DNA of 35,656 bases from a virus: IMG/VR virus record IMGVR_UViG_3300042380_000139, positions 1 to 35,656 of that record; one strand, 5' to 3'. The translations under genes and the position numbers were made by a program. Under the pieces are notes generated by a model that saw only the letters and a program-made list of their open reading frames with translations, did not search any database and was not told the DNA's origin. Below are positions 4,418 to 29,162 of the stretch, one piece after another (the first letter of the stretch is position 1; every line of letters begins with the position of its first letter).

Positions 4418-5820
4418 CAGTTCACCAGCCCTTCAATTTGAGCCTCAAGCCTCACGAATGAGACATGCGCTTGACTGTCGCCACGGAACCGCTGAATTCT
4501 CCAGCTCCTCATTGCGCCCTGTTGGAACCACACAAGCCGCTTCTTGGTGTCTCCGATGGTGCCAACTCTGATCTGTCTATCCTGGCTCCAGGATAGCCCA
4601 TCCAACGAATAGCTCGTTGTGATGATTGGATTGGCACCGAGAGCCACACGGCCAGGCAATGAGACAAGTTCGAGGCGGTTAAATATTGCACCGTTGCTCT
4701 CGTTGTATACGATCATGGTACCAAACTCCCACCGCACAATCTGGCCCCAGTGCGTGCTAATGGTGTCGATAAGATAACCAACACTTGATGACTGAGGGTC
4801 ACCTACCAGCCAGCGATCATAGGCCCATACCATGTTTCTGGCCCGATACTGGCTAAACCCATTCGTCGAGGTTGTCAGCGTGAACCACACGGCTTGCTCT
4901 AGCTCTTGCGAGGCAGCTCCATCGTAGACAACCGTTCGATCAGGCAGATGAATATATAGCTGCTGATGAGCTTTGTCGTTGCGAGCCTCTAGTTTCACCC
5001 TGGACAATTGATCCTCAGTGTAGTTCAGCAAAATATCGTCAATCTCTTGAGTGCTGATCTTCTGAGCTTGTGCGTTTGCTCCAAGATAGATGCCGGGAGC
5101 CTCGTTACGCCCACTGCCAAGGAACGCAATCATCTCAAGATAGACACAACACGCATGGGTGCCGATAACGCCCTTGGTGATCTGTGCGCCATCAATCCGA
5201 GAGAATGGAAAGAAGTCACCGCCGACATTGTCGAACACCTCAATGGTGTTACGGTTTAGCGCATAGACCTCATTCCGCAGCTTCAACACGGCCAGCAATG
5301 GATCTGGATCTACTTCAGATGATCCATATTTCAGCGGGTTGACCTGGGTAGGGTCAGTCAGCTCCGTGACAACCAGGCTTGTGCCATCAGTCGTCATGAA
5401 GTAGCCATCGACGAAAACGACATCAAGAACAACGCCGAGGTCTGGGTCAGTAACTTGGGTTAATGCTCCATTCCAATAATACAAACGGCCACCTGATACA
5501 ATGGCCAGTCGGTCGAAGCTGTAATCGAACGTGACTAGGCTATCAACAGGCCCTCCAACGTCGCCGAGTACGGTCACAGCCCCATTGCTGGCTACGGTCA
5601 CAAGCTTGGTGCCCATGACACGATAGCATGTGCCACTCCAATTGATCCCACCTCGATCAACCCCAGGCCCTGTTCCATTGGACACGATGCCATCAGCAGG
5701 CCGCAGGAATCCTGCACCGATGCCGCTATTCTTCGGCACAGGAACAAGGTTCACAGGGTAAGACGTGCGTAGGTCTGGCCCGTTGTCTGAATAGATTCCG
5801 CTAAGGATTGGGATTTGCAT
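4417..5820 (-). CDS. Packaged DNA stabilization protein, P22 gp10-like tail hub
   Basis: A 467-residue protein that I recognise as the P22 gp10 family (P22 gp10 is 472 residues). In P22 a hexamer of gp10 sits below the gp4 ring, closes the filled head and holds the needle and tailspikes. Family features visible are the opening PILSGIYSDNGPDLRTSYPV, a mostly beta protein with repeated blade-like strands (RLAIVSGGRLYYWNG, NEVYALNRNTIEVFD), and the C-terminal SYSLDGLSWSQDRQIRVG segment. It lies after the gp4 region and immediately before the needle gene, with a one-base stop/start overlap. Confidence 0.9.
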   Translation of the reverse strand: MQIPILSGIYSDNGPDLRTSYPVNLVPVPKNSGIGAGFLRPADGIVSNGTGPGVDRGGINWSGTCYRVMGTKLVTVASNGAVTVLGDVGGPVDSLVTFDYSFDRLAIVSGGRLYYWNGALTQVTDPDLGVVLDVVFVDGYFMTTDGTSLVVTELTDPTQVNPLKYGSSEVDPDPLLAVLKLRNEVYALNRNTIEVFDNVGGDFFPFSRIDGAQITKGVIGTHACCVYLEMIAFLGSGRNEAPGIYLGANAQAQKISTQEIDDILLNYTEDQLSRVKLEARNDKAHQQLYIHLPDRTVVYDGAASQELEQAVWFTLTTSTNGFSQYRARNMVWAYDRWLVGDPQSSSVGYLIDTISTHWGQIVRWEFGTMIVYNESNGAIFNRLELVSLPGRVALGANPIITTSYSLDGLSWSQDRQIRVGTIGDTKKRLVWFQQGAMRSWRIQRFRGDSQAHVSFVRLEAQIEGLVN

Positions 5821-16750: not shown

Positions 16751-16787
16751 TTGACACAGACGCTAGACATACGCTACATTTACATCA
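16751..16787 (+). promoter_or_regulatory. Early promoter P1 (left operon)
   Basis: TTGACA (16751-16756), an 18-base spacer and TACATT (16775-16780); predicted start A at 16787. The -35 lies in GTGTTGACA, a 9-mer shared by all three plus-strand early promoters here. Confidence 0.75.
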
Positions 16788-16816
16788 CTGCGCGACATGA
16801 CTGACAGACGGCGCAG
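16787..16816 (+). promoter_or_regulatory. 5'-end leader hairpin, copy 1
   Basis: Immediately after the predicted +1 A, CTGCGC (16788-16793) pairs with GCGCAG (16811-16816) around the 17-base loop GACATGACTGACAGACG. The ribosome site AGGAG follows for the gene at 16838. Copies 2 and 3 have different stem sequences with pairing kept and related loops. Confidence 0.65.
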
Positions 16817-16837
16817 CAACCAACCAGGAGATAGAAC

Positions 16838-17131
16838 ATGTTTACCAGCCAATACGACGAACACATCGCCAGCCAGCCAGACGACAGCCGCTGGGACGGA
16901 TTCGATCGTGGTGACACGGATTTTCAAGAGCAACAAGGGTCTTGCGTCATCGGACGCATGACCAGCGAAAGTGGTTCCAAAGTGGTCATCACCGAACATT
17001 GGTTTGATGGCCGCTCAGGAGCATGGTCTAACTACACGGTTTCAATTGACGGAGCCCTAGTGCATGACACCGATGACCGAGCCAACGCCATCACCGTAGC
17101 TCGCTGGTGGATGGCTGGATGCCCAGCCTAA
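16838..17131 (+). CDS. First gene of the left early operon, unknown function
   Basis: A 97-residue acidic protein with ribosome site CCAGGAG 9 bases before ATG. The sequence begins MFTSQYDEHIASQPDDSRWD and has a beta-rich middle (GSKVVITEHWFDGRSGAWSN, then YTVSIDGALVHDT) and a final helix ANAITVARWWMAG. No cysteine pair, membrane segment or known motif is visible. As the first product after early promoter P1 it would be made at once on infection, a slot often used for host takeover or anti-defence proteins. That is inference from position only. Confidence 0.7.
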   Translation: MFTSQYDEHIASQPDDSRWDGFDRGDTDFQEQQGSCVIGRMTSESGSKVVITEHWFDGRSGAWSNYTVSIDGALVHDTDDRANAITVARWWMAGCPA

Positions 17132-17142
17132 CCCACAACCCA

Positions 17143-17156
17143 GGGGCTCCGGCCCC
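17143..17156 (+). other. Intergenic hairpin, first of a pair
   Basis: GGGGC-TCCG-GCCCC, 11 bases after a stop codon and 24 before the next ATG. No T-tract, so not a terminator. It resembles the hairpin at 17402-17415. Confidence 0.6.
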
Positions 17157-17180
17157 AGCAACCTAATATGAGAGAACACC

Positions 17181-17396
17181 ATGAACCGCATTGAAAAAAT
17201 CATCGCCGCACTCACAACCGCTGCTAAAGACCCTGCAGTTACGAATAAACAGGCATGGGACGAATTCATCGACCCAGACGCAACCACCCCATTCGACTCC
17301 ATCAGTGAAGGGGAGCGGATTGTCTACGTCGCCGCAATGTCAGTTGATGAGTGCCTGCTCGATGGAGAGATGGACGAACTGATCCGCAACGTCTAA
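17181..17396 (+). CDS. Small acidic early protein, unknown function
   Basis: A 71-residue protein starting MNRIEKIIAALTTAAKDPAV and ending DECLLDGEMDELIRNV; it looks all-helical and acidic. The ribosome site is GAGAG in a leader ending ACACCATGAA, nearly the same as the leader of the following micro-gene. It is flanked on both sides by GGGGC-type hairpins. I do not recognise a family. Confidence 0.6.
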   Translation: MNRIEKIIAALTTAAKDPAVTNKQAWDEFIDPDATTPFDSISEGERIVYVAAMSVDECLLDGEMDELIRNV

Positions 17397-17401
17397 CCAC
17401 C

Positions 17402-17415
17402 GGGGCTTCGGCCCC
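17402..17415 (+). other. Intergenic hairpin with TTCG tetraloop, second of a pair
   Basis: GGGGC-TTCG-GCCCC, an unusually stable stem with a UUCG loop in RNA, 5 bases after the stop of the preceding gene and 17 bases before the next ATG. No T-tract follows. Confidence 0.65.
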
Positions 17416-17432
17416 TTCAATGAAAGCACACC

Positions 17433-17528
17433 ATGAAACGTCGCACCCCCCGTCAAATCCTCGCCGATCTGGCCTTTGCAATCGTCCTCGGCGCCTCATT
17501 CGGCGTTGTCTTCGGGCTCTACTTCTAA
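17433..17528 (+). CDS. 31-residue single-helix membrane peptide
   Basis: ATG 17433 encodes MKRRTPRQILADLAFAIVLG followed by a hydrophobic run (ASFGVVFGLYF). A basic N-terminus and about 20 hydrophobic residues predict one transmembrane helix with the start inside the cell. It has the same CACACCATGAA leader as the gene before it and is followed at once by a strong terminator. Such micro-proteins occur in many early phage operons; function unknown. It was accepted because leader, membrane pattern and placement all fit, but the ribosome site is weak. Confidence 0.5.
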   Translation: MKRRTPRQILADLAFAIVLGASFGVVFGLYF

Positions 17529-17552
17529 AACGGCCTCAGAGCCGTTTTTTTT
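17529..17552 (+). terminator. Strong intrinsic terminator inside the left early operon
   Basis: AACGGC pairs with GCCGTT around CTCAGA, with eight Ts (17545-17552). It directly follows the stop codon of the 31-residue ORF. Two more genes lie downstream with no evident promoter, so they need read-through or antitermination. Confidence 0.85.
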
Positions 17553-17621
17553 GGTCGGTACATGTCTAGGTAGCAGACTTCCCAAAAAAACGCTCCTATG
17601 GCCCTCTAAACTCGTCAGAAC

Positions 17622-17753
17622 ATGCCTCAAACCAGAACAGCACACCTCCTGGCCCTCCTCAAGGACGGCCACCCCTTCAGGATCGCCGTGATCCTCACAG
17701 GCCACTTTTTTAACGTCCCGGTCCACGTGATCGAGAGGGAGTTTTACCGATGA
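17622..17753 (+). CDS. 43-residue protein, possible helix-turn-helix
   Basis: ATG 17622 encodes MPQTRTAHLLALLKDGHPFR and ends HVIEREFYR. The pattern (helix, HLLALLKDGHPF, helix, NVPVHVIEREF) resembles a minimal DNA-binding helix pair, but it is too short to assign. The stop overlaps the ATG of the zinc-ribbon gene (ATGA), which is the main support for coding. No clear ribosome site precedes it, and it lies 69 bases after the terminator. Confidence 0.5.
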   Translation: MPQTRTAHLLALLKDGHPFRIAVILTGHFFNVPVHVIEREFYR

Positions 17754-18061
17754 ACTTTTGCCCGAAGTGCGAAGCACCCGCCCGAGTTCTAGAAAAACGC
17801 TGGAGCCAAAAAAAAGCCTGCACCCGTCGTCGACTTGGTTGTCCATCTTGCGGTTATAGATTCTCAATATTCGGGGATATTATGATTCCACAAATAGATA
17901 ATCAATTAGATTCAGAAGGAATGCCACGATATACAGAAACCATCCAAACCCTCGAGGCTCTAGTACGATCCGCCGGAGGTTGCGCCACCATCGACCAAGT
18001 CGCCGTCGTCAAGGCATGGCGTTTAATTGACCGTTATAACGCCATTATTAACGGTAAATAA
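17750..18061 (+). CDS. Zinc-ribbon protein, NrdR/Ogr-like, candidate transcription regulator
   Basis: A 103-residue protein starting MNFCPKCEAPARVLEKRWSQ, then RRRLGCPSCGYRFSIFG. The CxxC - about 28 residues - CxxC arrangement with basic residues between resembles the zinc ribbon of NrdR and of the short Ogr/Delta late activators of P2-like phages. The remainder (ETIQTLEALVRSAGG, VVKAWRLIDRYNAII) is helical. Ribosome site GAGAGGGAG. As the last gene of the left early operon, beyond an internal terminator, it would be delayed in expression. This fits a regulator that turns on the adjacent late promoter, but no direct evidence links them. Confidence 0.65.
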   Translation: MNFCPKCEAPARVLEKRWSQKKACTRRRLGCPSCGYRFSIFGDIMIPQIDNQLDSEGMPRYTETIQTLEALVRSAGGCATIDQVAVVKAWRLIDRYNAIINGK

Positions 18062-18231
18062 TAAGGTCTACCATCCTCCACATTCAGCCCGCCGCGTGCG
18101 GGCTTTTCTTTTATTTCCACCACATCCGTCAAAACTGGAACCCGATCCGGGTCAATGTGGCCAGGAAGGCCATCCCACCAGCCTACGCCAACCTCAACCC
18201 CCCCAACCTCAATAAATGTCTTTTTCATCAT
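18034..18231 (-). CDS. Small protein at the end of the primase operon, unknown function
   Basis: ATG 18231 or 18228 follows GAGGTG, a good ribosome site, and gives about 65 residues: MKKTFIEVGGVEVGVGWWDG, then LPGHIDPDRVPVLTDVVEIK and a C-terminal LPLIMAL. It overlaps the plus-strand terminator and the last 28 bases of the zinc-ribbon gene in antisense. It lies downstream of the primase terminator, so it needs read-through or its own promoter. Composition looks protein-like (VEVGVGWWDG, VVEIKEKP). Alternative: a chance frame. Confidence 0.42.
   Translation of the reverse strand: MMKKTFIEVGGVEVGVGWWDGLPGHIDPDRVPVLTDVVEIKEKPARGGLNVEDGRPYYLPLIMAL
18086..18115 (+). terminator. Intrinsic terminator of the left early operon
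   Basis: AGCCCGC and GCGGGCT form 7 pairs around CGCGT, followed by TTTCTTTTATTT. It lies 25 bases after the zinc-ribbon gene stops and ends the plus-strand unit before the convergent primase operon. Confidence 0.88.
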
Positions 18232-18240
18232 CACCTCATC

Positions 18241-18393
18241 AAATTTTCCATGCAACGCAACAGCCCCACAAACATAGCGCAACAACGCAACTACCCTAAA
18301 GGGTAGTAGTTGCGTTTTGTTGCGCTAAAATGTTAGTCTTGTCACAAACGCAACTAAAAAAAAGTTGCGCAACAGTTGCGTTTTGTTGCGCTA
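18241..18393. repeat. TTGCG repeat array with long inverted repeat; candidate origin or operator region
   Basis: The stretch 18232-18408 between the primase gene and the small minus-strand ORF holds about ten TTGCG/CGCAA words. AGTTGCGTTTTGTTGCGCTA occurs exactly twice (18308-18327 and 18374-18393). An inverted version, two bases shorter, lies at 18275-18292 and forms a long imperfect hairpin with the first copy, centred on CTACCCTAAAGGGTAG (18291-18306). Dense short repeats beside a primase-helicase gene are typical of phage origins with iterons, but binding by a regulator is equally possible. One hairpin also serves as a minus-strand terminator. Confidence 0.6.
18356..18391 (-). terminator. 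Intrinsic terminator after the primase-helicase gene
   Basis: On the minus strand GCGCAACA (18391-18384) pairs with TGTTGCGC (18374-18367) across a 9-base loop. After three bases come eight Ts (18363-18356). It lies 17 bases after the primase stop codon and is built from the TTGCG repeats. Confidence 0.75.
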
Positions 18394-18408
18394 CTTTTCC
18401 CCCCACTT

Positions 18409-20409
18409 TTATGCCCTCAAAAGCATGGCGGATGCTTGAACGGTGTCCAAAACGATCCACCCGTGTTCGTAAGAGTCGATGACCTGGGCGATCAAAAGCT
18501 CCCCGATCGGCTTCCCTTTTGACGATGGCCGGACGTAGATCGAAGCTGATGCTTCGGTTAATTCAAGGGTATCCATCAGATATTGGATAAACCCTGCCCT
18601 GCTCAAGTACGGCTGCCCTGCTCTGGTCTCTTTCCCTGCTGATTCCCAAGCATTCTGGAATAGCTTTATATGTTTAGTTAACTTATTATCTCTTTTATCG
18701 GATATTGGTTTATCGACTATTTCAATAATGGCACTGGTGACCTGTTCATCGTCCTCGTCGATCCATCCGTTGATCTCCACGGTGCGAAGCTGGGCGTATA
18801 TGTCTGGCGCAATTTCTGAGTCCTTGGCTTTGCGCTGGACGATCTGCATCGGAGCTTCGTCTTTTGCGGGAATGATGCTTACCTCGATGTCGAGGGCTCC
18901 TCTCCATGCTGATGACCCTCTGGCTCGGTGCTGAGCTTCTTCGCTGACGCCGGTGTGATGGACTAGCAAAACGGAGCAGTTAAATTCCCGCATGAGTTGC
19001 GCACATGCGTCGAGCATTGTTTTAGCGTCCTGGGCGCTGTTTTCGTCGCCGGATAGGAATCGGTGCAGGGTGTCAATGACAATTAGGTCGGGAGGATCGG
19101 GGAGCTGCTTGAGGTGGGTGGAGGTGGACAAATAGCCATCTGGCGTATTGAGGTCACAACCGGAGCGGCTGAGCCACATTGATAGACTGCCTGCGGAGTG
19201 GTGCTGCTTCCATGCTGCTATTCGAGCCCTTAGACCGTGGTGGCCTTCGCCTGCCAGGTAGACTATTTTTGAGGGCTTGACTCGGTGGCCTGCCCACTCT
19301 GTCATACCGCTGGCTAATCTCAGGCACCAGTCTAGGACCACGAACGTCTTACCGCCGCCAGAGGGACCGTGGATCATGATGAGAGCGTCGGATTGCAGCC
19401 AGCCCTTGATCAGCCATTTGATTGGGGCGGGCTTCTGGCAATAATCGTCCGCAGGAATGAGCCAGGACTCTTGAGGGGGGTTGAGCAGTAGGGCCAAATT
19501 GTGTCCAGCCTGGGCGTAGTCGTTTGCGTCGCCTTCGACCGGGGGCATGATGTATGTGACCCCGAATTTGGCGCAGGCTTGTTCAGCGTGACGCTGGCCT
19601 ACCCCGCTCTTATCGTTATCGGCGACTATGACGATCTTCTGGCCTGGGTGCATCTCTACCAAGCTGCCCGTGACGGGGATCAGGTTTGATGCACTGTATG
19701 CAACGACACAGGGGCGACCGGTTGTCTCGTGAATCGTGGCAGCGGTGGCGAAGCCTTCGGCGATGTACAGCACGCCCGGGTGGTCGAGGGTGCCGATGAT
19801 CCAGAAGCGGCCACCGGTCTGTCCGCCGGTGTGGTACAGCTTCCCGCCGTCTTCACTTATGTATTGCAGGCTGGATAGCTCACCATCCTCGCTAAAGAGA
19901 GGCACCATCAAACGACCATCACCTGTCACTCGGGCGCCGTGGGGTTGGACTCCCTTGCGCTTCAGGTAGGGATGATCTGGGCTGGCCTGGGCGCCGTCTC
20001 GCCAAATTGTTTCTACTGTGCTGGCTGCCACGGAACGATCCCGCTCTATTTCCTCGTCTCTCATGCGCTTTGCCGCATTGATCCGGGCAATGTGGGCCAT
20101 CTCTTCGGCGGGGGTCCATCGCTTTTTACCGATGTCAGCTTTGACCGTCTGAGTGAGATTGGCCCGCCAGCACCCAAAAGTCAGGCATGGGATTCCGTCA
20201 AAATGCCCGACGTACCAGCCCGAGCGATCTAGCGTTTTTCGGCTGCTGCCGGAGCGGAATCGATGAATCCGACCGTCGAGGATGAATTCCTCGGGAGCGT
20301 CGAGGCCGGCTTCTTCAATAGCTCTACTAAACTGCACTTCGATCGGGGGCGGGACAACTTCCTGGGGGGGAGACCAAGGGCCTCCAAGAATGTGCGTTAG
20401 ATCAGCCAT
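18409..20409 (-). CDS. Primase-helicase: TOPRIM domain plus RepA-like RecA-fold ATPase
   Basis: A 666-residue replication protein. An N-terminal region (to about residue 200) of the phage TOPRIM-primase type contains RIHRFRSGSSRK and GRLMVPLFSEDGELSSLQYI. The TOPRIM core follows with AEGFATAAT (217-225) and VADNDKSG (262-269), whose acidic residues bind metal. From about 340 comes a hexameric helicase domain of the RepA/AAA_25 type: Walker A GPSGGGKT (348-355), Walker B LIVIDTL (442-448) and a VLLVHHTG sensor-like strand (480-487). It should unwind and prime phage DNA, relying on host polymerase since no polymerase gene is seen. It starts 4 bases after the HTH gene stops, has no ribosome site of its own, and is probably translationally coupled. 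Confidence 0.9.
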   Translation of the reverse strand: MADLTHILGGPWSPPQEVVPPPIEVQFSRAIEEAGLDAPEEFILDGRIHRFRSGSSRKTLDRSGWYVGHFDGIPCLTFGCWRANLTQTVKADIGKKRWTPAEEMAHIARINAAKRMRDEEIERDRSVAASTVETIWRDGAQASPDHPYLKRKGVQPHGARVTGDGRLMVPLFSEDGELSSLQYISEDGGKLYHTGGQTGGRFWIIGTLDHPGVLYIAEGFATAATIHETTGRPCVVAYSASNLIPVTGSLVEMHPGQKIVIVADNDKSGVGQRHAEQACAKFGVTYIMPPVEGDANDYAQAGHNLALLLNPPQESWLIPADDYCQKPAPIKWLIKGWLQSDALIMIHGPSGGGKTFVVLDWCLRLASGMTEWAGHRVKPSKIVYLAGEGHHGLRARIAAWKQHHSAGSLSMWLSRSGCDLNTPDGYLSTSTHLKQLPDPPDLIVIDTLHRFLSGDENSAQDAKTMLDACAQLMREFNCSVLLVHHTGVSEEAQHRARGSSAWRGALDIEVSIIPAKDEAPMQIVQRKAKDSEIAPDIYAQLRTVEINGWIDEDDEQVTSAIIEIVDKPISDKRDNKLTKHIKLFQNAWESAGKETRAGQPYLSRAGFIQYLMDTLELTEASASIYVRPSSKGKPIGELLIAQVIDSYEHGWIVLDTVQASAMLLRA

Positions 20410-20413
20410 TTGG

Positions 20414-20602
20414 TCAGAGGATTGGTTGTGTTTGACGAATCAGATAATCGCTCAGAATCGTGATCGTTCGCAATGATGGGTTCACATTCAACCCCTTTTT
20501 AATGTGATGCAGCGTGTTCGCGTGCAGGCCGGTGGCTTCGGCTACGGCACTGATACGCCGATCGGCCAGGGCCGCTTTGATCTGGTCTAGGCTCAACAAC
20601 AT
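20414..20602 (-). CDS. Small helix-turn-helix regulator (Cro-like position)
   Basis: ATG 20602 is chosen because AGGAG lies 8 bases upstream and the predicted transcript starts at 20627; the open frame extends to 20647 but would begin upstream of the transcript start. The 62-residue product has LSLDQIKAALADRRISAVAE followed by ATGLHANTLHHIKKG, a clear helix-turn-helix, and a short helical tail. No other domain is present, so it resembles Cro-type single-domain regulators. It is divergently transcribed from the right early operon across a shared palindrome, its likely operator, and is co-transcribed with the primase-helicase. Confidence 0.8.
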   Translation of the reverse strand: MLLSLDQIKAALADRRISAVAEATGLHANTLHHIKKGLNVNPSLRTITILSDYLIRQTQPIL

Positions 20603-20626
20603 TTTTCTCACTCCTCTTTGTTTGGG

Positions 20627-20665
20627 TGTTGACATTGTGACGTGCAATCGTTTACATTGTCAACA
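20627..20665. promoter_or_regulatory. Symmetric overlapping divergent promoters P2 (+) and PM (-)
   Basis: Plus strand: TTGACA 20629-20634, 18-base spacer, TACATT 20653-20658, start A at 20665. Minus strand: TTGACA 20663-20658, 18-base spacer, CACAAT 20639-20634, start A at 20627. The arms TGTTGACATTGTGA and, inverted, TGTTGACAATGTAA make a 39-bp palindrome centred on 20646, with both starts at its outer edges. The two promoters cannot be used at once. Confidence 0.8.
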
Positions 20666-20696
20666 CCGCAGCGAACAGAATCGTCTGACAGCGCGG
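20665..20696 (+). promoter_or_regulatory. 5'-end leader hairpin, copy 2
   Basis: After the predicted +1 A of P2, CCGC-A-GC (20666-20672, one bulged A) pairs with GC-GCGG (20691-20696) around the 18-base loop GAACAGAATCGTCTGACA. The ribosome site GAGGAG follows. Its loop is nearly identical to copy 3. Confidence 0.65.
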
Positions 20697-20712
20697 CAAC
20701 GAGGAGAACGAA

Positions 20713-20898
20713 ATGGAAATGATCTACAACAAAGGCTTTTACAAAGTGTGGGCGTGCGAGGTGGGCGATTACGTTCTGATCTGGTCCAGCGACTATCCGA
20801 CTCGCTCTACCCTGATTGGCACATGCGACAGCATGCTAGACGCACTAGAGTGGGCCCGCGACTGGGTGCATTGCAAAATTGAGGATGTACCTTTTTAA
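20713..20898 (+). CDS. First gene of the right early operon, unknown function
   Basis: A 61-residue protein starting MEMIYNKGFYKVWACEVGDY, with a beta-rich first half (YVLIWSSDYPTRSTLIG) and a final helix (CDSMLDALEWARDWVHC). The ribosome site GAGGAG lies 7 bases before ATG. It is alone between P2 and the next promoter P3. No family recognised; an early host-interaction role is a guess from position. Confidence 0.65.
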   Translation: MEMIYNKGFYKVWACEVGDYVLIWSSDYPTRSTLIGTCDSMLDALEWARDWVHCKIEDVPF

Positions 20899-20917
20899 AT
20901 AATTTCACGTTGGGGTG

Positions 20918-20953
20918 TTGACAGGCCCACAGTCAAGCCCCACAATACACACA
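20918..20953 (+). promoter_or_regulatory. Early promoter P3
   Basis: TTGACA 20918-20923, 17-base spacer, CACAAT 20941-20946, predicted start A at 20953. The sequence GGGTGTTGACA is also present at P2. Confidence 0.7.
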
Positions 20954-20982
20954 TCGAGCGAAAAGATTGTCTGAAGGCTCGA
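20953..20982 (+). promoter_or_regulatory. 5'-end leader hairpin, copy 3
   Basis: After the predicted +1 A, TCGAGC (20954-20959) pairs with GCTCGA (20977-20982) around the 17-base loop GAAAAGATTGTCTGAAG. It ends at +30, exactly as in copy 1. The ribosome site AAAGGA follows. Confidence 0.65.
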
Positions 20983-21000: not shown

Positions 21001-21279
21001 ATGAAGAACAACGACCTGATGCTTACCCAAGCCGATCAACTGGGCGCGCTGTTGGCTGAGATTGACGTTCTGACCAAAAAGGCCGAGACCATCAAGGCCG
21101 CTATGAAAGAGATCGGCGGAGTGCACGATGGCGTGCTATTCCGCTCTACGGTGATCGAATCAAACCGGTCCGTAACGGACTGGAAGGCCCTTTGCGCCTC
21201 CCAGGGCATTGGCTCCGATGTGGTGGCCGCCCACACCAAGACCACGGCGGTCTACAGCGTCAAGACCACATCAAAATAA
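21001..21279 (+). CDS. Small conserved phage protein with N-terminal coiled helix
   Basis: A 92-residue protein. Residues 8-38 form an amphipathic helix (QLGALLAEIDVLTKKAETIK). The second half contains GVLFRSTVIESNRSVTDWKA and ends HTKTTAVYSVKTTSK. I recognise this layout from small proteins in early regions of other phages, always without known function. Ribosome site AAAGGA, first gene after P3. Confidence 0.72.
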   Translation: MKNNDLMLTQADQLGALLAEIDVLTKKAETIKAAMKEIGGVHDGVLFRSTVIESNRSVTDWKALCASQGIGSDVVAAHTKTTAVYSVKTTSK

Positions 21280-21469: not shown

Positions 21470-22129
21470 ATGCCAAACATTAGCAAAAACGTATCTGGCC
21501 AAAAATTTGACATGCTTCTTGCTGTTGAAATTATTGGAAAACGAGGAAAAGCAAATTTATGGAAATGCATATGCGATTGTGGGTCGGAAACATTTGCAAT
21601 AGTTTCTCAATTGACAAGAGGCGACAGAACTTCTTGCGGGTGCAAGAAAAAACAAAAAAAATCACCAAGGCCAGATTTAATTTTAAGGAATAAACAAAAT
21701 GCAAAACATGCAATGTCAAAAAGTCATACATATAAAAGTTGGAAATCAATGAAATCTCGTTGTTACGATAAAAACGATAAAGATTATCCAAGGTGGGGCG
21801 GCAGAGGAATTACAGTTTGTGATTCATGGAAAAATTCATTTATTGAGTTTTATAAAGACATGGGAGACCGCCCAAATGGTCACACGATAGACAGGATAGA
21901 CAACAATGGAAATTATGAACTTAAAAATTGTAGGTGGGCTGTTCCAAAAGTACAAAGCAACAACACAAGAAAAAATTATTACATTGAATACATGGGAAAA
22001 ACTCAAACAGCGAAACAATGGGCAGAAGAATTAAAAACAGTTGAATATAAAACTATTCTTTATCGTTTGCGAAATGGCTGGGAAACTCACGCAGCATTAA
22101 CAACTCCATCAACCATTAAAAGGAAATAA
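21470..22129 (+). CDS. HNH-type homing endonuclease with zinc ribbon and HTH tail
   Basis: A 219-residue protein. An N-terminal Cys cluster (WKCICDCGSETFA, then RTSCGCKKK) forms a probable zinc ribbon. The central nuclease region has YKSWKSMKSRCYDKND, RWGGRGITVCDSW and the catalytic HTIDRIDNNGNYE with NCRWA (residues 138-157). The C-terminal part (TAKQWAEEL, ILYRLRNGWETHAAL) looks like a NUMOD-type DNA-binding helix pair. The gene is markedly AT-rich with many AAA/AAT codons, unlike its neighbours, which indicates recent transfer. It is a free-standing selfish gene upstream of the recombinase gene and does not interrupt it; its end supplies AAAAGGAAAT, the ribosome site of the next gene. Confidence 0.85.
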   Translation: MPNISKNVSGQKFDMLLAVEIIGKRGKANLWKCICDCGSETFAIVSQLTRGDRTSCGCKKKQKKSPRPDLILRNKQNAKHAMSKSHTYKSWKSMKSRCYDKNDKDYPRWGGRGITVCDSWKNSFIEFYKDMGDRPNGHTIDRIDNNGNYELKNCRWAVPKVQSNNTRKNYYIEYMGKTQTAKQWAEELKTVEYKTILYRLRNGWETHAALTTPSTIKRK

Positions 22130-22131
22130 AA

Positions 22132-22803
22132 ATGGCTATCAACCTGAAATCAACGAAAGCTTTGGCAGCATCCGGAGTAAAAATTCTTGTTTATGGGCAA
22201 AGTGGAGCAGGCAAAACCAGCCTGATACCGACCCTGCCCGCCCCCATAGTGCTGAGCGCAGAGGGCGGCTTGCTCTCAATTGCAGGGGCTGACGTGCCCT
22301 ACATAGAGATAAGCGACATGGCCAGTTTGCGGGAGGCTTGGCAATGGATAACAGAATCGTCCGAAGCTAAAGAGTTTCAATCTGTGGCCCTGGACTCAAT
22401 CAGCGAAATAGCCGAGGTCGTCCTGAACGCCGAGAAGAAGGCGACCAAAGACCCCCGCCAAGCCTATGGCGCGATGCAAGAGCAAATGGCAGACATCATA
22501 AGAGCGTTCCGCGATCTGCCTGGCCGCCACGTCTACATGAGCGCGAAATTGGAGAAGACCCAGGACGAAATGGGTCGGGTGTTGTATGCGCCGAGCATGC
22601 CGGGCAATAAGACTGGCCAACAGTTGCCCTATTTCTTTGACGAAGTGCTTGCTTTGCGGGTGGAACGCGACGCCGAGGGCAACACACAACGGGCACTGAT
22701 GTGCGATTCTGACGGGCTATGGCTTGCCAAGGACCGCAGCGGAAAGCTTGAGATGTGGGAAGGCCCTGACTTGGGGGCGATCATCAAAAAAATTGAGACT
22801 TAA
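22132..22803 (+). CDS. Sak4-like single-strand annealing/RecA-fold ATPase
   Basis: A 223-residue RecA-core ATPase of the AAA_24 type. Walker A is GQSGAGKT (residues 22-29) and Walker B SVALDS has its Asp at 88. VYMSAKLEK and the LPYFFDEVLALRV segment follow, both typical of this phage family. Sak4-type proteins act with a phage single-strand binding protein in homologous recombination. Here DUF669 and a Cas4-like nuclease are encoded 1-1.5 kb downstream, the usual partnership. It starts 2 bases after the HNH gene stops. Confidence 0.87.
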   Translation: MAINLKSTKALAASGVKILVYGQSGAGKTSLIPTLPAPIVLSAEGGLLSIAGADVPYIEISDMASLREAWQWITESSEAKEFQSVALDSISEIAEVVLNAEKKATKDPRQAYGAMQEQMADIIRAFRDLPGRHVYMSAKLEKTQDEMGRVLYAPSMPGNKTGQQLPYFFDEVLALRVERDAEGNTQRALMCDSDGLWLAKDRSGKLEMWEGPDLGAIIKKIET

Positions 22804-23078: not shown

Positions 23079-23412
23079 AGAAACGCTAAAACTGGCTGGG
23101 CGCGCCGTGGGCATGGATGTTTGGTTCAATCATGAAGTGGGCTCATACGGATACGGTGCCCCGACATCGTTCACGAAATGGGATCCGCTACGTGACGACA
23201 GAGATGCATTTAGGCTCATGGTCGCACTGAAATTAAGTGTTCGACACAACTGGAACCTGAACGCGGTTGACGTGTCCGGCAATGTCTATCATCAGCCCGA
23301 CCGAGATGAAAGGATGGCTGAGTTTTATGGGCCAGAGAGTGGCCAAGACCCGTACACAGCAACTCGAACCGCGATTGTCAATGCGGCCGCAACGATAGGG
23401 AGATATTTATGA
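23071..23412 (+). CDS. DUF2591-like phage protein
   Basis: The start ATG 23071 (MTEETLKLAGRAVGMDVWFN) overlaps the previous stop by 8 bases; the longer frame from 23014 is antisense-like noise. The product has 113 residues. WDPLRDDRDAFRLMVALKL and the closing TRTAIVNAAATIGRYL are the signature of the DUF2591 group of small phage proteins, of unknown function. Its stop overlaps the next ATG (ATGA). Confidence 0.75.
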   Translation: MTEETLKLAGRAVGMDVWFNHEVGSYGYGAPTSFTKWDPLRDDRDAFRLMVALKLSVRHNWNLNAVDVSGNVYHQPDRDERMAEFYGPESGQDPYTATRTAIVNAAATIGRYL

Positions 23413-23795
23413 ACGACTTAGAAAAACTGGCGCATGACTGGGAGGAGGCGAAAGCTTTTGAGGCCCAGGCAATAGCGCGACGCCGAGAGATTGAGGATCA
23501 ACTCACCCAGGCGCTTGCGATCCCGAAGGACTTGGAAGGCACTAAAAACGAAGATGCAGGACAATACAAAATAAAGATCGTTGGTCGGCTGGATCGAAAG
23601 GTCAATGCTGATAAACTGCAAGAACTCGCCCAGGAATCCGGTCTAACCGAGCACTTGGGCAGTCTGTTCAGATGGAAGCCAGAGATCAACATGACAGCGT
23701 GGAAAGCTGCCCATGAGTCGATCACTGCTCCCCTTCTGGACGCTATCACCACCACGGCCGGAAGGCCGTCATACGCCATAACTCGAAAGGACTGA
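23409..23795 (+). CDS. Helical phage protein of the recombination cluster, unknown function
   Basis: A 128-residue protein. The N-terminal 40 residues form a charged coiled helix (WEEAKAFEAQAIARRREIED). A beta segment follows (GQYKIKIVGRLDRKVNADKL), then FRWKPEINMTAWKAAHE and a short tail ending YAITRKD. Genes of this layout often lie between Sak4-like and DUF669 genes, which suggests a recombination accessory, but I know of no assigned activity. It overlaps the previous gene by 4 bp and is 3 bp from the next. Confidence 0.72.
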   Translation: MNDLEKLAHDWEEAKAFEAQAIARRREIEDQLTQALAIPKDLEGTKNEDAGQYKIKIVGRLDRKVNADKLQELAQESGLTEHLGSLFRWKPEINMTAWKAAHESITAPLLDAITTTAGRPSYAITRKD

Positions 23796-23798
23796 ACC

Positions 23799-24278
23799 AT
23801 GGCTTTCTTATCACAATCATTCGACATCAACGAATTGCCAGAGGCAACTAACAATTACGGGCCTCTGCCCGCTGGTTGGTACGCCGTGACTATTTCCAAG
23901 GCTGACGTTAAGCCCACAAAAGCGGGTACTGGAGAGTACATCAATCTGATGTACACGGTCACAGGCCCGACCCACCAAGGCCGCACCGTCTGGGGCATCA
24001 TTAACATTCGAAACCCGAACCCGAAAGCCGAGGAGATCGGGCGCCAGCAACTTGGCGAGATTATGCGGGCGACTGGACTGTCTAAAGTCACGAACACAGA
24101 TCAACTGATTGGCAAGGATCTTGTGATTAAGGTCGCAGTTAAAGAGGACGACCGAGGCGGTGAGCGTAACGACGTGAAGGGATTCAAGGCCGTTCAAGGA
24201 GGCTCAATTCCCTCTATGCCTACCGCTGCGCCCGAGGCTCCAGCAGCAAAGGCCGCTCCCCCGTGGGCTAAGAAGTAA
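23799..24278 (+). CDS. Single-strand DNA-binding protein, DUF669 family
   Basis: A 159-residue protein. The OB-like core has LPAGWYAVTISKADVKPTKA, YINLMYTVTGPTHQGRTVWG and IGRQQLGEIMRATGLSKVTN, the recognisable DUF669 pattern. The C-terminal 25 residues are a flexible Ala/Pro tail ending in PPWAKK, in place of the acidic tip of bacterial SSB. Family members bind single-stranded DNA and partner with Sak4-like recombinases, encoded here 1 kb upstream. The stop codon is followed by a hairpin that is a terminator for the opposite strand. Confidence 0.85.
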   Translation: MAFLSQSFDINELPEATNNYGPLPAGWYAVTISKADVKPTKAGTGEYINLMYTVTGPTHQGRTVWGIINIRNPNPKAEEIGRQQLGEIMRATGLSKVTNTDQLIGKDLVIKVAVKEDDRGGERNDVKGFKAVQGGSIPSMPTAAPEAPAAKAAPPWAKK

Positions 24279-26772: not shown

Positions 26773-27189
26773 ATGCCAAGACCTGCACCCCCATGCAACA
26801 AGGGCCGCAAAATCATCAAGGTGAATGCACTGATGATGGCCCAGCTAATGAAACATTTGATGGAAGGCGACTATACATGCCAGGAGCTGGCCGAGGAAAC
26901 GGGCCTGCACTACGTGACCGTTCTTCATTACACCCGCGAGATGTACAGAGAAGGAGTGCTGCACATCTGTAAATGGGACAAGCGGCCAGAATCAAAAGAT
27001 CCAATAAGAATTTACAAGTTTGGATCAAAACCTGATGCCAAGAAAAAAATAATGACAGATGTGGAAAAGTCTCAACGGTACCGACAGAAAAAGAAACAAC
27101 TAAGGTTGGTTCAAATGATGGCAGGAGACTCTACGAGGTGCACCCGGAAACCGAAAGCACAGCAGACACAACAAAAGGAAGCAGCATGA
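26773..27189 (+). CDS. Winged-helix DNA-binding protein
   Basis: ATG 26773 (MPRPAPPCNKGRKIIKVNAL) follows GAGG, and the longer frame from 26656 overlaps the previous gene and is rejected. The product has 138 residues. A helix-turn-helix, LMEGDYTCQELAEETGLHYV, and TVLHYTREMYREGVLHICKW form a winged-helix domain at about residues 22-75, followed by RIYKFGSKPDAKKK. The C-terminal 50 residues are basic and probably disordered. It is a candidate regulator of this operon or of host genes. Its stop overlaps the next start. Confidence 0.7.
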   Translation: MPRPAPPCNKGRKIIKVNALMMAQLMKHLMEGDYTCQELAEETGLHYVTVLHYTREMYREGVLHICKWDKRPESKDPIRIYKFGSKPDAKKKIMTDVEKSQRYRQKKKQLRLVQMMAGDSTRCTRKPKAQQTQQKEAA

Positions 27190-27377: not shown

Positions 27378-28969
27378 TGCTCCGTGACTACCAGCAACGC
27401 ACAATCGACCATCTGTACCAATGGTTCAGAAACGGCAACGAGGGGAATCCTTGTTTAGTGCTTCCGACTGGCTCAGGTAAGAGCCACATCGTTGCGGCAT
27501 TGTGCAAGGATGCCTTGCAGAACTGGCCAGAAACCCGGGTTCTGATGCTCACTCATGTGAAAGAGCTGATTGAGCAAAACGCGGAGAAAATGAGACTCCA
27601 CTGGCCGGGAGCGCCAATGGGTATTTATAGCGCAAGCATTGGACGGAGGCAACTCGGGGAGCCTATCACTTTTGCAGGCATTCAGTCGGTGAGGGACAAA
27701 GCTCATCTGATTGGTCACGTTGATCTGGTCATCATTGATGAGTGCCACCTTGTCGGACACAAGGACGAAGGAGGTTATAGGCGGCTGTTGGCCGACCTGA
27801 AGGACATCAATTCCAATCTTCGTGTGGTGGGCCTTACCGCTACTCCCTGGAGGCTAGGACACGGTTTAATCACTGATGCGCCCGCGATCTTTTCCGATCT
27901 AATCGAGCCGGTGAGCATTGATGAACTGGTCAAACGCAAGTTTCTTGCTCCGTTGCGATCAAAGGTAACCGCTGAGCGACTGGACGTATCAGGCGTTCGC
28001 AAGCGTGGCGGGGAGTACATTGAGGCCGAGCTGCAAGCCGCCGTTGACAACGAGGCACAAAACAGAGCGATCGTGCAGGAGGTCATCACTAGGGCCGATG
28101 ATCGTAAAGCTTGGCTGTTCTTCTGTGCCGGTGTCCGTCATGCTGAGAACGTGCGAGACGTGCTGCAAAGCCTCGGAATCGTTGCGGAGTGCGTGACAGG
28201 GGATACGCCGAAAGCGGAGCGTGAACGCATTTTGACGCTCTACAAAGCCGGGCAAATCAGGGCATTGACGAACGCGAATGTGCTAACGACAGGGTTTGAT
28301 TACCCTGATATTGATCTGGTTGCCATGCTGCGCCCGACGATGTCACCTAGCCTGTATGTGCAGATGGCAGGCCGAGGAATGCGCCCAAAGAGCCACACCG
28401 ACCATTGCCTAGTGCTAGATTTTGCTGGTGTAGTGGCGACACATGGCCCGATAACGGCAGTGCAGCCTCCGAAGAAGGCAGGATCAGGCAATGGCGAGAC
28501 CCCAGTAAAGCTGTGCGAGGCTTGCAACGAGCTGTGCCCGATCTCCGCCAGAAAATGCCCAGCTTGTGGCGCTCCGTTCCCTGAACCAGAAAAAAAGCCC
28601 CTGACGCTGCACGTTGACGATATCATGGGCATCGAGGGCACAGAGATGCTCGTACGGTCCTGGATCTGGCGTAAGCACACAAGCAGGGCATCAGGTAAAG
28701 AAATGTTCGCGGTCACTTATTACGGTGCCCTGAGTGATCCTCCGGTTACCGAGTATCTGACAATCACGCATGATGGGTATCCGGGTGAAAAGGCAATTAG
28801 GACGTTCATGGACATGGCCAAAAAAGCCGGTGCGCCCATCGGGTCTCACGAGGATCTAGACGAATGCGCCAAGATCATGACGAAGGCCACGCCGCCGAGC
28901 TTGGTGGAGTACCGCAAAGAAGGGAAGTTTGTTCGAGTTATCAACCGAGAATGGGGGATCAATGAGTGA
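27377..28969 (+). CDS. Superfamily 2 DNA helicase with zinc-ribbon insert
   Basis: A 530-residue helicase of the SSL2/UvrB-like SF2 group. Motif I is LPTGSGKS (29-36), motif II DECH (121-124) and motif III TAT (154-156). Motif V is TTGFDYPDID (304-313) and motif VI QMAGRGMRP (329-337). After the helicase core a four-cysteine zinc ribbon, CEAC and CPAC (C380, C383, C394, C397), is followed by a C-terminal domain of about 130 residues with YYGALSDPPVTEYLTI. It should remodel replication or recombination intermediates. It overlaps both neighbours. Confidence 0.9.
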   Translation: MLRDYQQRTIDHLYQWFRNGNEGNPCLVLPTGSGKSHIVAALCKDALQNWPETRVLMLTHVKELIEQNAEKMRLHWPGAPMGIYSASIGRRQLGEPITFAGIQSVRDKAHLIGHVDLVIIDECHLVGHKDEGGYRRLLADLKDINSNLRVVGLTATPWRLGHGLITDAPAIFSDLIEPVSIDELVKRKFLAPLRSKVTAERLDVSGVRKRGGEYIEAELQAAVDNEAQNRAIVQEVITRADDRKAWLFFCAGVRHAENVRDVLQSLGIVAECVTGDTPKAERERILTLYKAGQIRALTNANVLTTGFDYPDIDLVAMLRPTMSPSLYVQMAGRGMRPKSHTDHCLVLDFAGVVATHGPITAVQPPKKAGSGNGETPVKLCEACNELCPISARKCPACGAPFPEPEKKPLTLHVDDIMGIEGTEMLVRSWIWRKHTSRASGKEMFAVTYYGALSDPPVTEYLTITHDGYPGEKAIRTFMDMAKKAGAPIGSHEDLDECAKIMTKATPPSLVEYRKEGKFVRVINREWGINE

Positions 28970-29162
28970 GCCACACGTTGTCCAGGTGTACCGAGAGAAA
29001 CTGAGAGAGGCAAAGAAGGGTTTGTACCCGCCGAAGTGCTGTTACACATGCGACCATTTTGCAGACCATGACTACTGCACGATGTTCGATGAGAAAGTGC
29101 CGAAAAATTTTGCCGGGTCAATAGATCAATGCCCGAGTTGGTTTGAGGAGATCCCATTTTGA
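28962..29162 (+). CDS. Small Cys-rich protein, probable zinc finger
   Basis: The start ATG 28962 (MSEPHVVQVYREKLREAKKG) overlaps the helicase stop by 8 bp. The product has 66 residues, with CCYTCDHFADHDYC and, further on, DQCPSWFEEIPF. Cysteines with nearby histidines could hold one zinc. The CxxC-H-C-C pattern is common in small phage proteins beside helicases, without known role. Confidence 0.65.
   Translation: MSEPHVVQVYREKLREAKKGLYPPKCCYTCDHFADHDYCTMFDEKVPKNFAGSIDQCPSWFEEIPF

Follow-up and report, generated by a model that had tools for sequence, protein, structure and literature searches.

A small hairpin with a covarying stem at the predicted 5' ends of early phage transcripts

Hairpin copies and neighbouring genes in the window

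The window, meaning the whole stretch of DNA that was analysed, is a viral record of 35,656 bases in which a small hairpin was found in three plus-strand leaders. A search of the annotated phage collection gave no near match to its central 16 kb. Copy 1 (16788-16816, plus strand) has the outer stem CTGCGC (16788-16793)/GCGCAG (16811-16816) closing the inner region GACATGACTGACAGACG. The outer stem of copy 2 (20666-20696, plus strand), CCGC(A)GC (20666-20672)/GCGCGG (20691-20696), carries a bulged A at 20670 and encloses the inner helix CAGA/TCTG, while that of copy 3 (20954-20982, plus strand), TCGAGC (20954-20959)/GCTCGA (20977-20982), encloses AGA/TCT. An earlier sequence-only reading had placed three folding hairpins at these positions, and this was confirmed with predicted folding energies of -10 to -12 kcal/mol and a promoter 7 nt before each. 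The same reading described a 17-nt loop; such a region does lie between the strands of the outer stem but it is not a plain loop, as it holds an inner helix of about 3 bp between A-containing internal strands.

Each copy in the window starts about 7 nt past a sigma70-type -10 box, with TTGACA located 17-18 nt further upstream. The promoters, which are predictions only, lie on the plus strand at 16751-16780 for copy 1 and 20629-20658 for copy 2 (both TTGACA-18 nt-TACATT) and at 20918-20946 for copy 3 (TTGACA-17 nt-CACAAT), and the transcripts are predicted to start at 16787, 20665 and 20953. All three hairpins end 17-22 nt 5' of a start codon (ATG at 16838, 20713 and 21001) with a ribosome site in between. 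The copy-2 promoter overlaps the predicted divergent promoter of an HTH-primase operon and is spanned by an inverted repeat, GTGTTGACA (20626-20634)/TGTCAACAC (20658-20666), which supplies the -35 of that divergent promoter. A similar repeat was observed in locus L084, and it is possibly an operator of the HTH protein. A palindrome resembling ACGCTA-N4-TAGCGT was noticed between the -35 and -10 of the copy-1 promoters in four relatives (L006, L012, L020 and L021) and, in degenerate form, near 16760-16775 of the window; it is possibly a repressor site.

The first genes after copies 1, 2 and 3 (16838-17131, 97 aa; 20713-20898, 61 aa; 21001-21279, 92 aa; all plus strand) have no family match, and in close relatives the first of them is replaced by unrelated genes. 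An HNH endonuclease gene (21470-22129) lies between the copy-3 gene and the gene for a Sak4-like ssDNA annealing protein (22132-22803, plus strand), which directly follows the hairpin in most relatives. Further downstream, the product of 23799-24278 (plus strand) matches a single-strand DNA binding family (phrog_6015, E 5.7e-31), although its best hit, phrog_2300, is of unknown function; this SSB-like protein is a candidate trans-acting factor. On the minus strand, a small HTH transcriptional regulator (20414-20647) diverges from copy 2 and belongs with a primase-helicase (18409-20409), in whose own operon leader a model search of the window found no hairpin match. On the 3' side of the primase gene, past its end, there is a cluster of GCGCAAC/GTTGCGC repeats (18255-18400), possibly iterons or an origin.

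Occurrence among related phages

Two covariance models were used, R1, which was built from 20 copies including window copies 1 and 3, and R2, whose training included window copy 1. R1 scored 36.9, 31.6 and 21.1 bits in the window, as listed for copies 1, 2 and 3, against 11.4 for the next best match, and R2 gave the three copies 33.3, 32.1 and 22.2 bits, with 16.4 for the next. This last match (27133-27167) is weak, sits in a stretch that is apparently coding-conserved with locus L016 and was judged to be due to chance. The window scores are partly self-trained, but the weight of the evidence is borne by the relatives.

The primase-helicase was used to gather 80 viral loci, of which 66 contained an R1 match of at least 20 bits. 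The sequence-only reading had proposed such a search; the stems were found to be maintained, also in contigs fetched with Sak4. R1 listed 121 matches, a number of which are weak and probably due to chance, and every one of them is on the strand that runs away from the primase. In the second set, fetched with Sak4, all 72 listed matches from the 65 loci searched are on the Sak4 sense strand. A third set was fetched with the 50-residue N-terminus of Sak4, and here 42 of 43 listed R2 matches from 48 loci searched are on the sense strand. All 18 leaders inspected in this set show a foldable hairpin of the same shape, with weak or ordinary matches and loci lacking a match (L217, L222, L236, L247, L260, L264, L275, L277 and L278) being included. 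The counts are not independent events, because the contigs share ancestry and both models were built from relatives in the searched sets, with R2 training copies coming from the earlier ones. About 16 model matches, regarded as chance or truncated, were left out by hand from the later counts, including those of spacing and first genes, and for some of these, L043:8343 and L015/L016/L018:972 among them, the exclusion was a judgement call.

Homologues of copy 1 are present in L002 to L021. The claim of three early plus-strand leaders holds for the window but does not carry over to most relatives, which have a single copy; L069 has three, and L002, L008 and L014 have an extra divergent copy. The latter forms a divergent unit of promoter, hairpin and small ORF (near 5287, 8139 and 10206 respectively) between copy 1 and the terminase side, a unit that is absent from the window.

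The hairpin was also found directly 5' of a Sak4-like gene in four isolated phages. Idiomarinaceae phage 1N2-2 scored 28.6 bits with R2, which had its copy among the training rows, and 23.2 bits with R1, which did not. The corresponding values for CGphi29 are 16.7 bits (E 0.11, copy among the R2 training rows) and 11.9 bits (not in R1 training). R2 found no match in Alteromonas phage PB15 and in XX1924, and the hairpins of these two were read from the leader by eye. A strict descriptor applied to the 62 nt upstream of Sak4 matched 81 of 148 distinct regions. Among the controls it matched none of 148 shuffled sequences, 2 of 148 reverse-complemented regions and 57 of 2288 62-mers taken at random. 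Among the 67 regions missed, the hairpin is visible by eye in about 25, and in many others, as in the window, another gene separates the hairpin from Sak4. In contrast, single-copy descriptor scans of the loci returned many chance hairpins, so the covariance models were used instead. A broad pattern that allowed one more N matched three viral contigs, probably by chance. When phages were searched by blastn with the 30-nt consensus, the hits were of low significance, and the one in Burkholderia phage KL1 falls inside an annotated structural-region gene.

R1 was not significant in seven phages carrying Sak4 relatives (Septimatrevirus Ab26, Pseudomonas Baskent_P4_1, Rhodobacter RcSpartan, Moraxella Mcat25, VogelGryff, Variovorax VCLv21 and R7M), and when P4_1 and Ab26 were searched over their full genomes with R2, the best match reached 17.4 bits (E 0.077). 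The primase-helicase and the genes at 23409-23795, coding for a phrog_2480 protein, and 28929-29162 are common to four carriers of the hairpin and weak or absent in two element-free Sak4 phages, and these three make up a short list of partner candidates and no more. A scan of bacterial genomes gave one relative in a MAG, and 369 genomes of the class of this MAG gave two genomes with Sak4 matches. In one bacterial MAG (G001) the Sak4 matches are in two pieces (L204 and L205), as if the gene were broken or frameshifted.

Covariation and leader geometry

Across 38 diverse copies, all nine pairs were observed to have double changes, in which both sides differ, and 88.6% of the cells pair. The covariation score was 0.621, compared with 0.158 for shuffles and 0.063-0.129 for slid structures. 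Alignments A1, A2 and A3 agree with this result, where A2 and A3 lean towards the covariance model because they were fitted to it. The architecture consists of an outer stem, 5-7 bp long and free to vary in its bases, A-containing internal strands of 2-4 nt, an inner helix of about 3 bp and an apical loop of 3-6 nt which usually has A in the first position. Of the unpaired positions, A23 never varies, while A10 and A15 are each conserved in at least 90% of the copies. These fixed unpaired bases, located beside stems that covary freely, point to either recognition or a specific fold. In interior cells G-U was found eight times and A-C three times, a small test which only mildly favours RNA on the hairpin-bearing strand. 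Selection on RNA structure had been proposed from the stems of the three window copies, and with double changes at every pair across many phages, an RNA structure under selection at the predicted transcript 5' ends is strongly supported.

The distance from the -10 box to the first paired base is 7 nt in 69 and 8 nt in 24 of 124 scored leaders (93 of 124 at 7-8 nt), with the promoters being consensus predictions and best fits, since the script took the best-scoring one in each leader. Such a choice favours tidy spacing, and random positions were therefore used as a control: a promoter score of at least 8 at a distance of 5-9 nt was obtained for 82% of 90 distinct hairpins and for 1% of random positions. 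Relative to the predicted transcript start, the first paired base falls between about +1 and +3. Judged by the predicted promoters only, whose gap to the hairpin peaks at 7 nt, the 5' end is paired or has very few free nucleotides. A start codon follows 11-23 nt past the hairpin in all leaders but two. The hairpin itself is stable (mean -10.9 kcal/mol, z -2.6), whereas the 60 nt after it are no more structured than shuffles (mean z -0.3).

The first genes downstream fall into at least 23 clusters with no similarity detectable at E 1e-3. For example, copy 1 lies upstream of differing genes in L002, L006, L008, L009, L012, L014 and L015. Since it precedes so many unrelated first genes, the hairpin belongs to the promoter and the 5' end and not to the gene, and this gene-independent placement suggests that the element serves the transcript and not one protein.

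Relation to known RNA elements and possible roles

Rfam 15 returned nothing at gathering scores for the whole window. At E up to 5, the sole overlap with a hairpin was an antisense match to a eukaryotic microRNA model (12.6 bits, where the cut-off is 500), and four relatives had no Rfam match at E up to 1. Literature searches did not turn up the hairpin, most subscription papers lying outside their reach. It appears to be an RNA control element that has not yet been described and that is tied to transcript starts rather than to one gene. Binding by a CsrA-type protein was set aside because the window hairpins have no GGA.

The best explanation, to which we give about an even chance, is that the hairpin is a cis-acting 5'-terminal RNA element of early mRNAs, read by a factor and tuning decay and/or translation. 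The hairpin would form the 5' terminus of the phage early mRNAs, where its blunt paired end may limit the entry of 5'-end-dependent decay enzymes. The fixed unpaired bases would provide a putative recognition site for a phage or host factor, and this factor may tune the decay and/or the first-cistron translation of these transcripts together. The conserved unpaired bases could, however, serve a non-canonical fold without any partner.

The main rival is a passive stabiliser, in which the terminal stem-loop leaves RppH and RNase E no free 5' end to act on and the fixed bases are needed only for a compact fold. Stabilising stem-loops of this kind are found at the 5' ends of the ompA and papA mRNAs (Emory, Bouvet and Belasco 1992, as cited in PMC3997798). 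They start no more than about 2 nt from the 5' end and are followed by a short leader to the ribosome site, as is predicted for the present hairpin, and the pairing that begins close to the predicted +1, the stability of the fold and the placement independent of the gene all suit such a role. Unlike in ompA and papA, the unpaired bases and the two-helix shape are conserved here in a large number of phages and ahead of many first genes that are unrelated to each other. A generic clamp needs neither the same internal-loop A's nor the same two-helix architecture in divergent phages, and we regard passive stabilisation as somewhat unlikely. Another possibility is that a replication or recombination protein encoded in these operons, Sak4 or the SSB-like protein, uses the hairpin as a translational operator. 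Precedents are the autocontrol of T4 genes 43 and 32 (PMC3014915), where a structured phage RNA similarly precedes the ribosome site of a gene for DNA metabolism. The hairpin is near the first ribosome site, the first gene is usually Sak4 and the operon includes an SSB-like gene, but the T4 operators are gene-specific whereas hairpins in the clade of the window precede small unrelated ORFs and not Sak4. No tie to a repressor gene was seen across the many unrelated first genes, and we consider this explanation improbable.

The sequence-only reading had drawn an analogy with the put sites of HK022, and this has been weakened. Both are early-operon phage RNAs at the start of a transcript, and antitermination, by a nascent hairpin that modifies RNA polymerase or recruits a phage antiterminator, would account for the gene-independent position. 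Two of the operons, that of copy 1 (17529) and that of 1N2-2 (30379), also contain sense terminators. However, put RNA is about 70 nt long with two stem-loops (PMC9378689), while here there is one hairpin of about 30 nt followed by an unstructured leader with no second structure. A scan for intrinsic terminators found none in the sense direction in the 10-kb Sak4 operon of the window or in the CGphi29 operon. The best R2 match in HK022 (26.0-40.7 kb, in a record where put is not annotated) is 9 bits with E 2.4. Antitermination therefore has little probability in our view, and a 5' stabiliser or a protein-binding control site, which the same reading had named as alternatives, would fit the predicted geometry better. 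A feature of the DNA, such as a repressor operator or a replication or priming site on the same bases, might be suspected from the inverted repeats flanking the copy-2 promoter and from the adjoining primase gene. This is highly improbable, as a DNA-binding protein would not tolerate an outer stem whose sequence is free to change, the internal A's are not dyad-symmetric and the hairpin is strictly coupled to a promoter and a start codon.

Returning to the factor-read 5' element, we tentatively extend it to a modular early unit made up of promoter, hairpin, ribosome site and an exchangeable first gene. If read by one dedicated factor, such units may represent a new family of phage regulatory RNAs that places all early operons under shared post-transcriptional control, although we think this broader proposal is more probably wrong than right. 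If the interpretation is correct, many phage contigs would share a post-transcriptional control element which is missing from Rfam. Because it is located at transcript starts before many unrelated genes, the element would be a marker of early transcription units in phages that otherwise lack annotation, and it would offer a small and tractable system in which to study how bacterial mRNA is controlled from its 5' end.
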